DNA of 35,697 nucleotides from a virus, in IMG/VR virus record IMGVR_UViG_3300023170_000082, positions 1 through 35,697 of that record. One strand, written 5' to 3'. Each line of letters opens with the position of its first letter. Position 1 is the first letter of the stretch. Shown piece after piece: positions 9,003 to 15,950 of the stretch. A program made the position numbers and the translations under genes. Under the pieces are notes generated by a model that saw only the letters and a list, made by a program, of their open reading frames with translations, searched no databases and was not told the DNA's origin.

Positions 9003-9076
9003 TAGATGATCAAGTAGTAGCGGTGCTTACTCTCTTGTTATTCATTGGCACAATATTTTTTATGGTGCAGAAATAA
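8999..9076 (+). CDS. 25-aa membrane microprotein
   Basis: ATG 8999 overlaps the preceding TGA, and the TAA at 9074-9076 overlaps the exonuclease ATG (TAATG). Between them lie 25 codons: an acidic start (MIDDQ) and one hydrophobic segment (VVAVLTLLLFIGTIFFMV) ending QK. Being hooked to neighbours at both ends is good evidence that it is translated. Two consecutive membrane peptides in an early operon could be superinfection-exclusion or membrane-remodelling factors, which is speculation. Confidence 0.55.
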   Translation: MIDDQVVAVLTLLLFIGTIFFMVQK

Positions 9077-10038
9077 TGGGCGAGAAAGAAGGTAAGTTAA
9101 CTAGAGACGATAGAGCAAGTGCAAGTGGTTATTCTCAACTTAAAGGCAATAGTCCTTATGGTACACGACAGGAATATTTACATAGAGCCATTAGGGCTAG
9201 CGAAGGAGAGAACGTGAGAGAGGAAATAGATAATGATTCAGTTAATATAGGTCATTTCATGGAAGGTCATATCATTCGCTATGCATGTGAGAAGCTAAAT
9301 CTCAGGGATGTGAAAACGGAGTTTGGTCAGAAGTTTGAGCATCCCTTCTTCCCTGTTGAATGTTCTTTAGATGGAACTGCAATCGCAGATGATCTGACGT
9401 ATGTAGAGAATCCAGATAAAGGAGTTTACATTCCAGAAGGTGATGAAATTCACTTAGATGGCATGGGTGTTATTGAGTGCAAGCTGACAAAAGCATATCC
9501 ACCGCAAGACGGTAAACCTGCTATTTGGAGAGGATGGGAGCAACTCAAGACTCAGGTCGAATGTGTTGGGTGCAACTGGGGTGTCTTAGTTGTCTTTTAT
9601 CATATTCAACCTGTGATGCATTGTTACTTCTATCAAAGAGACCCTGCTTTTGAAGCAGAGCTGAAAGAAGTTGTAGAAGACTTTCAATACAGAGTCGATA
9701 CCAAGACTTACTATGACCCTGTAACCTCTGATGATGCATGGTTGAAGTATCAGAAAGTTATTCCAGATGAGGTGGCAGAATTGCCTGCTACAGCGATTAA
9801 TTTATTGGCTCAGATAGAAAGACTAGATGAGAACATAAAAGCATCGCAGGAAGCACGAGATGCTCTGCAGGCTACGGTCATGGATATGATGGGTAATGCA
9901 GAGAAAGCTGTTGCAGGTGAGTACGAGATCTCATGGGGCAACATTAGGTACAAGGCACAACCTGAGAAGTTAGTGGAAGCTAAACCAGAAAGGATTGTGA
10001 GACGTAAGAATATTAAGTTTAGAAGGGTAGCAACGTAG
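9076..10038 (+). CDS. YqaJ-like viral recombinase/exonuclease
   Basis: A 320-aa nuclease of the lambda-exonuclease/YqaJ fold. The N-terminal helix has the Ser-Gln-Leu and Arg contacts typical of the family (SGYSQLKGNSPYGTRQEYL). Catalytic residues appear in order: E63 (HFMEGHIIRYA), D99 (CSLDGTA), E134-x-K136 (GVIECKLT), then Q157/Q160 (WEQLKTQ). It resects double-strand ends to allow annealing recombination with the SSB-like protein downstream. Residues 250-320 form a coiled coil and a basic tail (RIVRRKNIKFRR). Its stop lies inside a 10-bp inverted repeat. Confidence 0.85.
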   Translation: MGEKEGKLTRDDRASASGYSQLKGNSPYGTRQEYLHRAIRASEGENVREEIDNDSVNIGHFMEGHIIRYACEKLNLRDVKTEFGQKFEHPFFPVECSLDGTAIADDLTYVENPDKGVYIPEGDEIHLDGMGVIECKLTKAYPPQDGKPAIWRGWEQLKTQVECVGCNWGVLVVFYHIQPVMHCYFYQRDPAFEAELKEVVEDFQYRVDTKTYYDPVTSDDAWLKYQKVIPDEVAELPATAINLLAQIERLDENIKASQEARDALQATVMDMMGNAEKAVAGEYEISWGNIRYKAQPEKLVEAKPERIVRRKNIKFRRVAT

Positions 10039-11136: not shown

Positions 11137-11706
11137 ATGAGTGAAGATTTTTTCAGCAATGAAAGCAGCTCTGATGGCGGTTCTTTAAGATTCTTAAAGT
11201 ATCTGGTCAAAGAGAAAATGTGGATGGTAGGAGAAGATTCTGTTGATCTTTCTTACGTTCAAGTTGATGTAGAAACTATGAAAACAGGTATCGGTAGATA
11301 CTCAGGCGGTTATGAGTTTGAGTGGTCACCTGTATTTGGTTCTAGGTTATACAAAGACGGATGGTCTGATGCTGTTAGTGTTTGGCTAATGATTCATGGT
11401 GAAGATAAACCAGTATTGTTAGAGACTATGGCAGGACATCAGGTGAGAGCATTTAAGAGCATGTATGAGCAGATCAGAAATGATTTTAGGGATAACCTTC
11501 CCAATCTACCTGTCTTCTCTTATAAAGGCTCAGAGACGTTTAAAACCAAAAGCGGTTATGACAGTGCATCACACACATTTAAGCTAGAAGGCTACAAACC
11601 AAGAAAAGACGGTTTTGTTGTGCCAGAATGGTTTAAAGAAGAAGCAGCAGTTGATGCTGAGGTAACGAAGACAGAGGAACTTAAATCAGAAGACATTCCA
11701 TTCTGA
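11137..11706 (+). CDS. Single-stranded DNA-binding-like protein with SSB C-tip
   Basis: A 189-aa protein. The N-terminal and middle regions look beta-rich (MKTGIGRYSGGYEFEWSPVFG, DAVSVWLMIHG) and no enzyme motif is seen. The acidic tail (TKTEELKSEDIPF) ends in Asp-Ile-Pro-Phe, the conserved tip by which SSB proteins recruit partner enzymes. Placement between nuclease/exonuclease genes and the primase-helicase also fits an SSB, and the core may be of the phage SSB-like type often annotated as unknown. AGGAG lies upstream. Its TGA overlaps the next ATG by one base. Confidence 0.65.
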   Translation: MSEDFFSNESSSDGGSLRFLKYLVKEKMWMVGEDSVDLSYVQVDVETMKTGIGRYSGGYEFEWSPVFGSRLYKDGWSDAVSVWLMIHGEDKPVLLETMAGHQVRAFKSMYEQIRNDFRDNLPNLPVFSYKGSETFKTKSGYDSASHTFKLEGYKPRKDGFVVPEWFKEEAAVDAEVTKTEELKSEDIPF

Positions 11707-13631
11707 TGACTAACGAGGACTGGGCATCAATAGCTAGACCTGTTGCCTTAGAAGTATTAGGCGAGCCTACATCCGAATCATCTTCTGAGATGAGATGGAA
11801 TAAAAAGGGCAGCATGTGCTTGAATAAGGACACAGGTCAGTTCTATGATTTTGAAAATCGTGAAGGTGGCGGTACTCATTGGTTTCTTAATAAGTTTGAC
11901 GTAGATGTGAAAGAAACGTTAGATAGATTTGGTTTTAGTGATGTGGGAGAAAATTTAGGCACTACTTATTTTTTCCCTTCTCAAAAGGTGTCTAAACCTT
12001 CCGCATCACTATCCTCAGAAGAGCTGAGAAAGCTCTGGACTGAAGCGGTAGTTAAGATCAAGTATGCAGACAATTTTATTGTCCTCAGATTCCCTGAAGG
12101 GCATAAAAGAAGTTATCAAAAATATTGTCCATTTAGTAAACAAGAGAATGACCAATGGCTCATGAAGAGACCATCTGGAAAATTGCCTTTATATCTAACA
12201 CCTAACAGAGATGCGACACTACCTGTCGTATTGGTCGAAGGTGAGAAAGCAGCAATCGCTGCAGAGAAGATATATGAAGGGCAAGTAGCTTGTCATCATG
12301 GTGGTGTTAGCGGATGGAGCAAAACAGATTGGTCACCGTTGTTTGGTAGAGATGTATTTATTTTTCCAGATAATGATGATGCAGGTTTTGGATTTGCTAA
12401 CGATATTGGTACTTATCTAGAGACACATAAATGCAATGTTTGGAAAGCTAAACCACCTGTTGAATTAAATGAGAAAGAAGATCTGCATGAAGCATTAGAA
12501 AAAGGCATCTTTAGCAGTTCTGATGTGTTTGTGAATTATGTCAAAAGCAATCCATTGCAAAGACCTAAAGGAACTTTCTATTTAGAACGTGCTGATAAGC
12601 TAATGTCAGAAGTAGACCATCCTGAATGGTTAATCAAGAATGTGGTTGAGAGATCAAGTCTCTTGGGCATATTTGGTAAACCTAAAGATGGTAAGTCTTT
12701 TGTGGCTATCGCAATGGCAGCATCTATTGCTAAAGGCTCTAATTATTACGGTTATGAGACAACTCAAGCACCAGTAGTTCTGTTAGCAGGTGAGGGTCTC
12801 AGAGGAGTTAAGCGTAGACTTGCTGTATATTCGCAAGAAATGCATGATCTAAGCGGTTGTCCTTTATTCTTGTCTAACAGAGGAACAAGAGTTCTGGATG
12901 ATGATGAGTTTGAGAAACTAAAGCAAGAGCTAGACTTGATTGAAGCAAAACAAGGCTCAATCGGATGTATTATTTTCGACACCTTAAACAGAAACTTCGG
13001 TAGTGGCTCAGAGAACTCCACAGAGGACATGACTTTGTTTATCAGTAGGTTAGATAGCCTTATTCATAAATACAACGCTGCGGTGATCGTAGTGCATCAT
13101 ACAGGACATAATAACTTTGGCAGACAAAGAGGGTCATCTGTTCTTGGTGCATCTATGGACTATGAGTTTAAGGTCACGAGAGAAGATAGCGGTGGTGATA
13201 TGTTTGTAACTGTTGAGCAGACCCTTAATAAAGATGGTATGGGCATGGCTACTATGGACTTTAAGTTTGTGGAAGCTCAGATAAATGGTTTTGACGGATT
13301 AACATCTGGATATTTGGAACTTACGGAAGATAAACCTGAAATCAAGAAGTCTATGAATGCAGCTCATGCAATGATAGATAAAGCACTTACTAATCTTGCG
13401 ACACTTAAGGTCGTAGCAGATGGTGGTGCTTCAGAGGATTACTGGTTTAAGCCAAGTGATCTAACAGGCAAGGTTAGCAAGGTTAGAGGTGAAGGCATTA
13501 TGTCTGATGGCAATATTAGGACTTATTTAAGCAAAATGAAGGAGTCTGATGATATATGTCATGACCCTAAAACTGACACTTATCAATCCATTCAATACAA
13601 AAGAAAGGTCGATTTTGATGAAATTAACTAA
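11706..13631 (+). CDS. TOPRIM primase-helicase (RepA/DnaB-type replicative protein)
   Basis: A 641-aa two-enzyme protein. The N-terminal part (RWNKKGSMCLNKDTGQFYDF) resembles the DNA-recognition part of primases, although no full zinc finger is present. TOPRIM follows: VEGEKA with E178 and E180, then PDNDDAG with D222 and D224. Next is a RecA-type helicase: Walker A GKPKDGKS (324-331), Walker B-like IIFDTLNRN, and a sensor strand VIVVHHTGH. The C-terminus looks like a winged-helix domain (SDGNIRTYLSKMKE). It would unwind and prime DNA at the origin for the host polymerase. A candidate origin lies directly after it. Confidence 0.88.
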   Translation: MTNEDWASIARPVALEVLGEPTSESSSEMRWNKKGSMCLNKDTGQFYDFENREGGGTHWFLNKFDVDVKETLDRFGFSDVGENLGTTYFFPSQKVSKPSASLSSEELRKLWTEAVVKIKYADNFIVLRFPEGHKRSYQKYCPFSKQENDQWLMKRPSGKLPLYLTPNRDATLPVVLVEGEKAAIAAEKIYEGQVACHHGGVSGWSKTDWSPLFGRDVFIFPDNDDAGFGFANDIGTYLETHKCNVWKAKPPVELNEKEDLHEALEKGIFSSSDVFVNYVKSNPLQRPKGTFYLERADKLMSEVDHPEWLIKNVVERSSLLGIFGKPKDGKSFVAIAMAASIAKGSNYYGYETTQAPVVLLAGEGLRGVKRRLAVYSQEMHDLSGCPLFLSNRGTRVLDDDEFEKLKQELDLIEAKQGSIGCIIFDTLNRNFGSGSENSTEDMTLFISRLDSLIHKYNAAVIVVHHTGHNNFGRQRGSSVLGASMDYEFKVTREDSGGDMFVTVEQTLNKDGMGMATMDFKFVEAQINGFDGLTSGYLELTEDKPEIKKSMNAAHAMIDKALTNLATLKVVADGGASEDYWFKPSDLTGKVSKVRGEGIMSDGNIRTYLSKMKESDDICHDPKTDTYQSIQYKRKVDFDEIN

Positions 13632-13637
13632 TAATTT

Positions 13638-13680
13638 ACTGCATAAAACTGCATATAAACTGCATAAAACTGCATATAAA
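13638..13680 (+). repeat. Tandem iteron-like direct repeats
   Basis: The 21-base unit ACTGCATAAAACTGCATATAA occurs twice in a row (13638-13658 and 13659-13679), each made of two halves of 10 and 11 bases sharing ACTGCATA. The halves start at 13638, 13648, 13659 and 13669, so the same face of the helix is presented four times. Likely binding sites for a phage or host initiator. Confidence 0.75.
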
Positions 13681-13690
13681 TTATCAATTT

Positions 13691-13738
13691 TTCCGCATAT
13701 TTCTGCATATATACCCTTAGGGTATATGCAGTATGCGG
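13691..13738. repeat. Large imperfect palindrome with TATACCC-TTA-GGGTATA core
   Basis: The core TATACCC/GGGTATA is perfect around a TTA loop. It is flanked on the left by CCGCATA (13693-13699) plus CTGCAT and on the right by TGCAG plus TATGCGG (13732-13738); CCGCATA and TATGCGG are reverse complements. A further TATGCGGAA (13760-13768) matches the left TTCCGCATA (13691-13699). As RNA it would form a strong hairpin; as DNA it presents the GCATA motif in both orientations. Confidence 0.65.
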
Positions 13739-13760
13739 TAAATAATGGGCAGTAAACTTT

Positions 13761-14291
13761 ATGCGGAAGAAAAATACAATATTAGAAAAGAAAGAATTTA
13801 GTCCTCATGTTCTGAGACTGATAAAAGAGTACAAACAACAGGAGATTAATCTTCTGAATCTATGGGGCAGTGAAGCAAGAGTTCTATCGCTTGTGTCTAA
13901 CGAATTACGTCTTAAATTTAAAAAGGCACGTGATTTATACGGAGATGCCTATAACTCAAAAGACGATGCCAAGATGCTTGAAATGATCAATATGATGAAA
14001 CGTGCTTTTGATGTTTTGATTAAAGATCTAAGAGATCAGGGCTATCGAGAAGTAGAAGCTGATATCAGATGCTTTGATTGGGATGGTGATCTCTGGTATG
14101 TAACAGATATGGATTATCAATTACCAAGAGCAAGAGCAACAACTGGAGACCCTAATGGAAATTACATTAGCATTCAGGAACTATTGCGAGCTGTACCAAA
14201 AGAGATGATGGATATGAGACTGTTGTTAGCAAAACAATTTGAAGGCAGTAGCTTTCAGTATGTGAAGACAATCAAGGATAATAATGGATAG
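13761..14291 (+). CDS. Unknown protein (176 aa) after the candidate origin
   Basis: A 176-aa, mostly helical and highly charged protein (VLRLIKEYKQQEINLLNLWG, NELRLKFKKARDLYGDAY, MINMMKRAFDVLIKDL) with an acidic middle (ADIRCFDWDGDLWYVTDMDYQL). No family is recognised. The ATG overlaps the last GCATA motif of the repeat region, and no good Shine-Dalgarno is seen, so translation may be controlled by whatever binds there, or the true start may be further in. The next gene starts inside its last eight bases. Confidence 0.6.
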   Translation: MRKKNTILEKKEFSPHVLRLIKEYKQQEINLLNLWGSEARVLSLVSNELRLKFKKARDLYGDAYNSKDDAKMLEMINMMKRAFDVLIKDLRDQGYREVEADIRCFDWDGDLWYVTDMDYQLPRARATTGDPNGNYISIQELLRAVPKEMMDMRLLLAKQFEGSSFQYVKTIKDNNG

Positions 14292-15859: not shown

Positions 15860-15950
15860 GACCCCCATGCATAGGTTCTTTTAGCGTACCTCATATGGGT
15901 TATTCGCGAGGTCAGAATTTTCCTAGTGTCAGTCGGTCTCAACTAGGGTA
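15860..15950. other. Candidate cos/packaging site upstream of the terminase genes
   Basis: This gene-free stretch has several short inverted repeats: CCCAT (15864-15868)/ATGGG (15895-15899), ACCTC (15888-15892)/GAGGT (15908-15912) and CCTAGT (15922-15927)/ACTAGG (15942-15947). GGGTTATTCGC (15897-15907) followed after eight bases by AATTTTCC (15916-15923) closely resembles the right side of lambda cos, where GGGTTTTCGC is followed by AAATTTTCC. Lambda cos also lies just upstream of the small terminase gene. The exact nick points cannot be read. Confidence 0.5.

Follow-up and report, generated by a model that had tools for sequence, protein, structure and literature searches.

We analysed a viral DNA stretch of 35,697 nucleotides (nt) (IMG/VR virus record IMGVR_UViG_3300023170_000082, positions 1 to 35,697; hereafter referred to as the window) and found that positions 13639-13766 probably form an iteron-type replication origin, which, judging from sequence comparison and a structure model, would be read by the C-terminal winged helix of the primase-helicase encoded immediately upstream. 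This span holds six direct and three inverted copies of the short word GCATA together with a palindrome. Around 80 relatives share its layout, and among them the iteron word changes together with the C-terminal domain of the helicase. An initial annotation of the window had proposed a candidate replication origin here, and these comparisons support that proposal.

An iteron array directly downstream of the primase-helicase gene

The array is non-coding and lies between the stop codon of an open reading frame (ORF) of 641 amino acids (aa), which stands about 10 nt before the first iteron, and the ATG of an ORF of 176 aa. The locus comprises the following features:

11137-11706, plus strand: putative single-stranded DNA-binding protein (SSB) of 189 aa with an acidic C-terminal tail, the upstream neighbour in the module
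11706-13631, plus strand: primase-helicase of 641 aa, with a TOPRIM-type N-terminal half and a RecA-fold, RepA/T7 gp4-like helicase at about residues 300-525
13338-13628, plus strand: helicase C-terminal domain (residues 545-641), a winged helix in the model and the proposed iteron reader
13639-13676, plus strand: four direct iterons CTGCATA starting at 13639, 13649, 13660 and 13670 (spacing 10, 11 and 10), with GCATA invariant in relatives and a layout counterpart in other word classes
13677-13692: A+T-rich gap (the ATAAATTATCAATTTTTC region), a candidate strand-opening site with a putative role in melting
13693-13709, plus strand: two more direct iterons, CCGCATA (13693-13699) and CTGCATA (13703-13709)
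13709-13727: palindrome ATATACCC-TTA-GGGTATAT (in full, ATATACCCTTAGGGTATAT), overlapped by the inner iterons; relatives have palindromes of other sequence
13725-13738, minus strand: two inverted iterons, CTGCATA (13725-13731) and CCGCATA (13732-13738), in minus-strand reading
13760-13766, minus strand: ninth iteron, CCGCATA, inverted, overlapping the ATG of the next gene at 13761
13761-14291, plus strand: conserved P0002-like protein of 176 aa with no assigned function, whose divergence does not follow the iteron word

The GCATA copies start at 13641, 13651, 13662, 13672, 13695 and 13705 in forward orientation and at 13725, 13732 and 13760 in reverse. All nine positions and orientations had been listed in the initial annotation, as had the non-coding location directly after the primase-helicase gene, with which the ORF map agrees. 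GCATA is not enriched across the window as a whole (81 observed, about 87 expected) and clusters only once, at the array, where nine copies fall within 128 nt against 0.26 expected from the rest of the window (Poisson P ~1e-11, for a word picked post hoc). Applied to 101 relatives, a word-blind detector reported strong arrays in 59% of the 300-nt stretches that follow the helicase gene. The same detector flagged 1% of control stretches from within that gene and none of 505 dinucleotide shuffles. The first four direct iterons make up two identical 21-nt units. At 10.5 bp per turn, copies 1 to 4 take the phases 0, 343, 0 and 343 degrees and copies 5 and 6 take 51 and 34 degrees, so that the single helix face initially assigned to all six forward copies is exact for four, which agree within 17 degrees, and approximate for six, the next two lying 34-51 degrees off. 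The locus thus shows one hallmark of an iteron-type origin, a series of short direct repeats spaced by about a helical turn beside the gene of a putative initiator.

The palindrome and its flanking iterons form a longer imperfect hairpin at 13693-13738, and the strand folds far more stably than its shuffles (z = -5.1), in agreement with the strong palindrome described initially. The A+T-rich gap also has counterparts in relatives, for example AAATCAACAATTA. No DnaA box (TTATCCACA, at most one mismatch) was found between 8.3 and 15.0 kb, and the locus thus does not qualify as a DnaA-dependent origin. A scan of 13400-14000 restricted to sigma-70 promoter-like sites returned none, against 2.7 expected in shuffles, and searches for terminators and Rfam families gave no match at the array. 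These absences fit an origin and do not prove one.

The primase-helicase and its C-terminal domain

The 641-aa ORF matches phage primase/helicase families, with Pfam AAA_25 at E = 1.2e-30. Its Pfam Toprim match falls below the gathering cut-off, and phage primase profiles match as well. The helicase motifs KxGKS, DT and HHxGH are near-invariant. An AlphaFold2 model of the protein (mean predicted local distance difference test score 83.5) matches the T7 gp4 primase-helicase and RSF1010 RepA, and the RecA-fold domain and conserved motifs place the protein among the hexameric helicases of the RSF1010 RepA type (superfamily 4, SF4). In the model, the C-terminal domain consists of helices followed by a two-stranded wing, and its best PDB matches are winged helices; no P4 or SaPI initiator structure is among the listed PDB matches of this domain, which excludes nothing.

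Conserved layout and changing words among relatives

Every iteron copy is retained in six contigs whose helicases are 93-100% identical. In the most divergent of the six (L008, 93% identical), the position following the first C varies between T and C in several of the copies and GCATA is unchanged in every copy, indicating that the element is constrained as CYGCATA; the palindrome centre changes from TTA to TAA in the same contig.

More distant loci were gathered through terminase and through helicase alignments, giving 101 non-redundant loci, of which 80 carry a strong array at a strict threshold, with the layout conserved and the words different. The helicases of the first set of these relatives are 36-45% identical to that of the window, and the order of SSB-like gene, helicase, non-coding array and P0002-like gene is kept. 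The usual layout begins with four direct repeats spaced by 10-12 nt, followed by an A+T-rich gap of 20-30 nt, one or two further direct repeats, a palindrome and finally inverted repeats. By group, the words include CYGCATA, AGGGAAG, AAGGAAG, CGGAAG, CAGGGAA, TTGGTTTGG, TGGTTGG, TTGGGTG, TGGATAT, CTCTGCC, TGGTGTA, TGGTGTC and TTGGTTC, and the cultured roseophages have TTTGTAG (CRP-811), TTATACA (CRP-821) and GCTGGAA (CRP-406). The initial annotation had taken repeats that vary beside conserved flanking genes as a sign against an origin. Read literally, distant relatives present this very pattern, but the layout is kept and word and helicase C-terminus switch together, an argument for recognition and not against it.

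An extra gene of about 500 nt stands between helicase and array in some relatives, with the word class unchanged; it lies just after the helicase stop codon (L150, L189, L192, L235, L184 and L194) and resembles DNA methyltransferases by eye alone. Cultured CRP phages have arrays and no detectable P0002-like gene; the gap that follows the helicase gene is at about 4.4 kb in CRP-811 and 3.4 kb in CRP-821. The helicase-array module is also present in a SAR86 single-cell assembly (L255) and a Flavobacteriaceae metagenome-assembled genome (L256), which hints at hosts beyond Roseobacter. A DNA search of 50,697 phage records returned nothing similar, a scan of IMG/VR with the bare iteron pair was unspecific, and scanning genome contigs with a single protein turned up no relative. 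No comparable array follows the gene in five phages whose RepA-type helicases are more distant (two Manatee Spring genomes, Caulobacter GB2A, Mycobacterium Knocker and Salmonella NBSal006), and arrays are thus not general to RepA-type phage helicases.

Covariation of the iteron word with the helicase C-terminal domain

We compared pairwise iteron-motif similarity with protein identity by partial rank correlation, holding the other protein segments constant. Words were taken from a simple exact-word detector, loci without a detected array were excluded, and two sets were used, namely 74 loci and the 36 loci left after removing similar C-termini (all <80% identical). Similarity of the iterons followed the C-terminal domain (residues 545-641), with partial correlations of 0.48 (74 loci) and 0.59 (36 loci) that were reached in 0 of 200 permutations. 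The values were 0.20 and 0.17 for the helicase core and about 0 for the N-terminal half. The first 97 aa of the downstream protein, which serves as a linkage control because its gene borders the array from the opposite side, gave -0.15 and -0.14. Median iteron similarity was 0.25 in the 82 pairs with a similar downstream protein and a different C-terminus, versus 0.98 in the 88 pairs in which both were similar. The data points are related loci, an effect of kinship that the 36-locus subset and the recombinants described below lessen and do not remove.

Recombinant loci display the same coupling. The helicases of L207 and L187 are 94% identical in the N-terminal half and core and 39% identical in the C-terminal domain, and their words are CAGGGAA versus TCGGAAG. 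Between CRP-811 and CRP-821, the cores are 99% and the C-termini 70% identical, and the words TTTGTAG and TTATACA differ within a shared layout. The pair L167/L168 has most of the TOPRIM half and the beginning of the downstream gene in common, and differs in helicase core, C-terminus and word. Binding of the iterons by a cognate initiator is predicted from this covariation. Of the two binders suggested initially, the primase-helicase is accordingly the likely one, and the 176-aa protein was rejected as iteron reader because its divergence does not follow the word.

Weighing the origin reading against alternatives

Four points weigh against an origin read by the helicase C-terminus. The small C-terminal domain reaches no significant Foldseek E-value, and its likeness to winged helices is generic. 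About 20 of the 101 loci lack an array above threshold in the scanned stretch. Neither the window nor three cultured relatives have a GC-skew turning point at the array; the extremum that the initial annotation had suggested as a check near 13.7 kb is absent, and the check is uninformative. Finally, the C-terminal codons adjoin the array, and linkage could therefore create part of the covariation, a caveat tempered by the downstream gene, which shows no covariation from the other side of the array.

We consider it improbable that the array is a transcriptional operator, bound by a regulatory phage protein (the helicase C-terminus being one possibility) to control the downstream gene or a late operon. 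The array does lie directly upstream of a gene, with the last inverted copy overlapping the start codon, and repeats and palindromes are frequent in operators. Speaking against this reading are the lack of sigma-70-like sites reported above, a word that follows the helicase and not the downstream gene, and the relatives in which the inserted gene separates helicase and array and leaves the word unchanged. A dual role as operator and origin is conceivable.

Equally improbable is an origin whose iterons are read by a separate initiator (the P0002-like protein, a host protein or another phage protein), with the helicase merely recruited. RSF1010 and lambda have separate iteron-binding initiators, which counts in favour of this arrangement. 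The precedent in RSF1010 is RepC (PMC8965321). However, divergence of the P0002-like protein shows a partial correlation of only -0.14 to -0.19 with the word, the cultured CRP phages have arrays where that gene is not detectable, and among closely related contigs the word changes where the helicase C-terminus changes.

It is highly unlikely that the covariation is mostly hitchhiking, in which the helicase 3' end and an array serving packaging or acting as a recombination hot spot recombine together unmatched: the first iteron does lie close to the helicase stop codon, but the downstream gene lies at a similar distance without any association, the layout persists through word changes, inserted genes leave word and C-terminus coupled, and the likely packaging end, at about 15.9 kb, is 2.2 kb from the array.

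A proposed mechanism and comparison with known systems

If the array is an origin read by the helicase, the C-terminal winged helices of several subunits would line up on one helix face along the direct repeats and, across the palindrome, meet a second, oppositely oriented group of subunits. The ring helicase would thereby be placed and loaded at the A+T-rich gap and would open the strands and unwind there, with priming by the TOPRIM half and with the phage SSB supplied by the adjacent gene.

In satellite phage P4, the C-terminal winged helix of the alpha protein binds an iteron origin, the helicase is of the superfamily 3 (SF3)/AAA+ type, and a second site, crr, is also needed. P4 alpha combines TOPRIM primase, helicase and C-terminal winged helix in one protein (PMC4234260). 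The window protein likewise has a TOPRIM-like part and a modelled C-terminal winged helix, but its helicase is RecA-fold and RepA-like and not SF3, and GCATA forms a single cluster, unlike the two sites of P4.

In the Rep/ori system of staphylococcal pathogenicity islands (SaPI) and in Cch2 of the staphylococcal cassette chromosome mec (SCCmec), the C-terminal domain of the replicative helicase reads short iterons, and the origin lies directly downstream of the helicase gene (PMC7581432). The window array occupies the same position, and C-terminal specificity is suggested here by covariation. Whereas the SaPI and SCCmec enzymes are AAA+ helicases of the DUF927 or D5/Primase_Cterm type, the window protein, from a tailed phage, has a RecA-fold, RepA-type helicase with a TOPRIM half, matching Pfam AAA_25 and a RepA/T7 gp4-like fold in place of an AAA+ Rep.

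RSF1010 RepA is among the closest solved folds of the helicase domain (template modelling score up to 0.73, target-normalised), and iterons with an A+T-rich region are shared with RSF1010 oriV. That plasmid uses three separate proteins, RepA, RepB and RepC, of which RepC melts oriV so that RepA can load (PMC8965321), unlike the single chain of helicase, primase-like half and proposed reader in the window. The best reading is that the window system works like SaPI Rep/ori and P4 alpha, from which it is set apart because its motor is RecA-fold, near RSF1010 RepA and T7 gp4. If so, a single RecA-fold protein would unite origin recognition, helicase and primase, functions that RSF1010 divides among three proteins. 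We give about even chances to the broader proposal that an SF4 RecA-fold TOPRIM primase-helicase acts as its own origin recogniser and self-loader, and that its word is often switched by exchange of the C-terminal winged helix with the iterons, separating the replication specificities of co-infecting relatives. Such switching would suggest that phages occurring together are selected to keep their replication specificities distinct.

The window terminase is up to 52% identical to that of Roseobacter phage CRP-821, which places the window near the CRP-822-type phages. These roseophages (PMC12629253) have the same gene order and arrays in the same place, but their iteron words differ, and the CRP-811 and CRP-821 helicases are only about 21% identical to that of the window. 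PMC12629253, the single paper found on these marine phages, contains no description of an origin, and neither "iteron" nor "repeat" occurs in its text. The alignment represents a natural library in which more than a dozen iteron words come with their helicase C-terminal domains, some of the switches being near-isogenic, and it thus makes a winged-helix DNA-reading code on a ring helicase directly testable.

Neighbouring genes and genome ends

The gene at the place of the 189-aa ORF in cultured CRP roseophages carries an annotation as single-stranded DNA-binding protein, and a RecE-like recombination exonuclease is encoded upstream of the replication module at 9076-10038. A likely physical genome end, cos-like, was located at 15898-15911. 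Contigs of near-identical relatives begin exactly at 15898 (GGTTATTCGCGAG), and the upstream contig L003 ends in GGGTTATTCGCGAGA; GGTTATTCGCGAG and GGGTTATTCGCGAGA overlap briefly, and the terminase small subunit gene follows after about 66 nt. The last ~150 bases of the window repeat 499-652 with few mismatches, and the assembly may therefore be circular or permuted, although a plain end repeat is absent.
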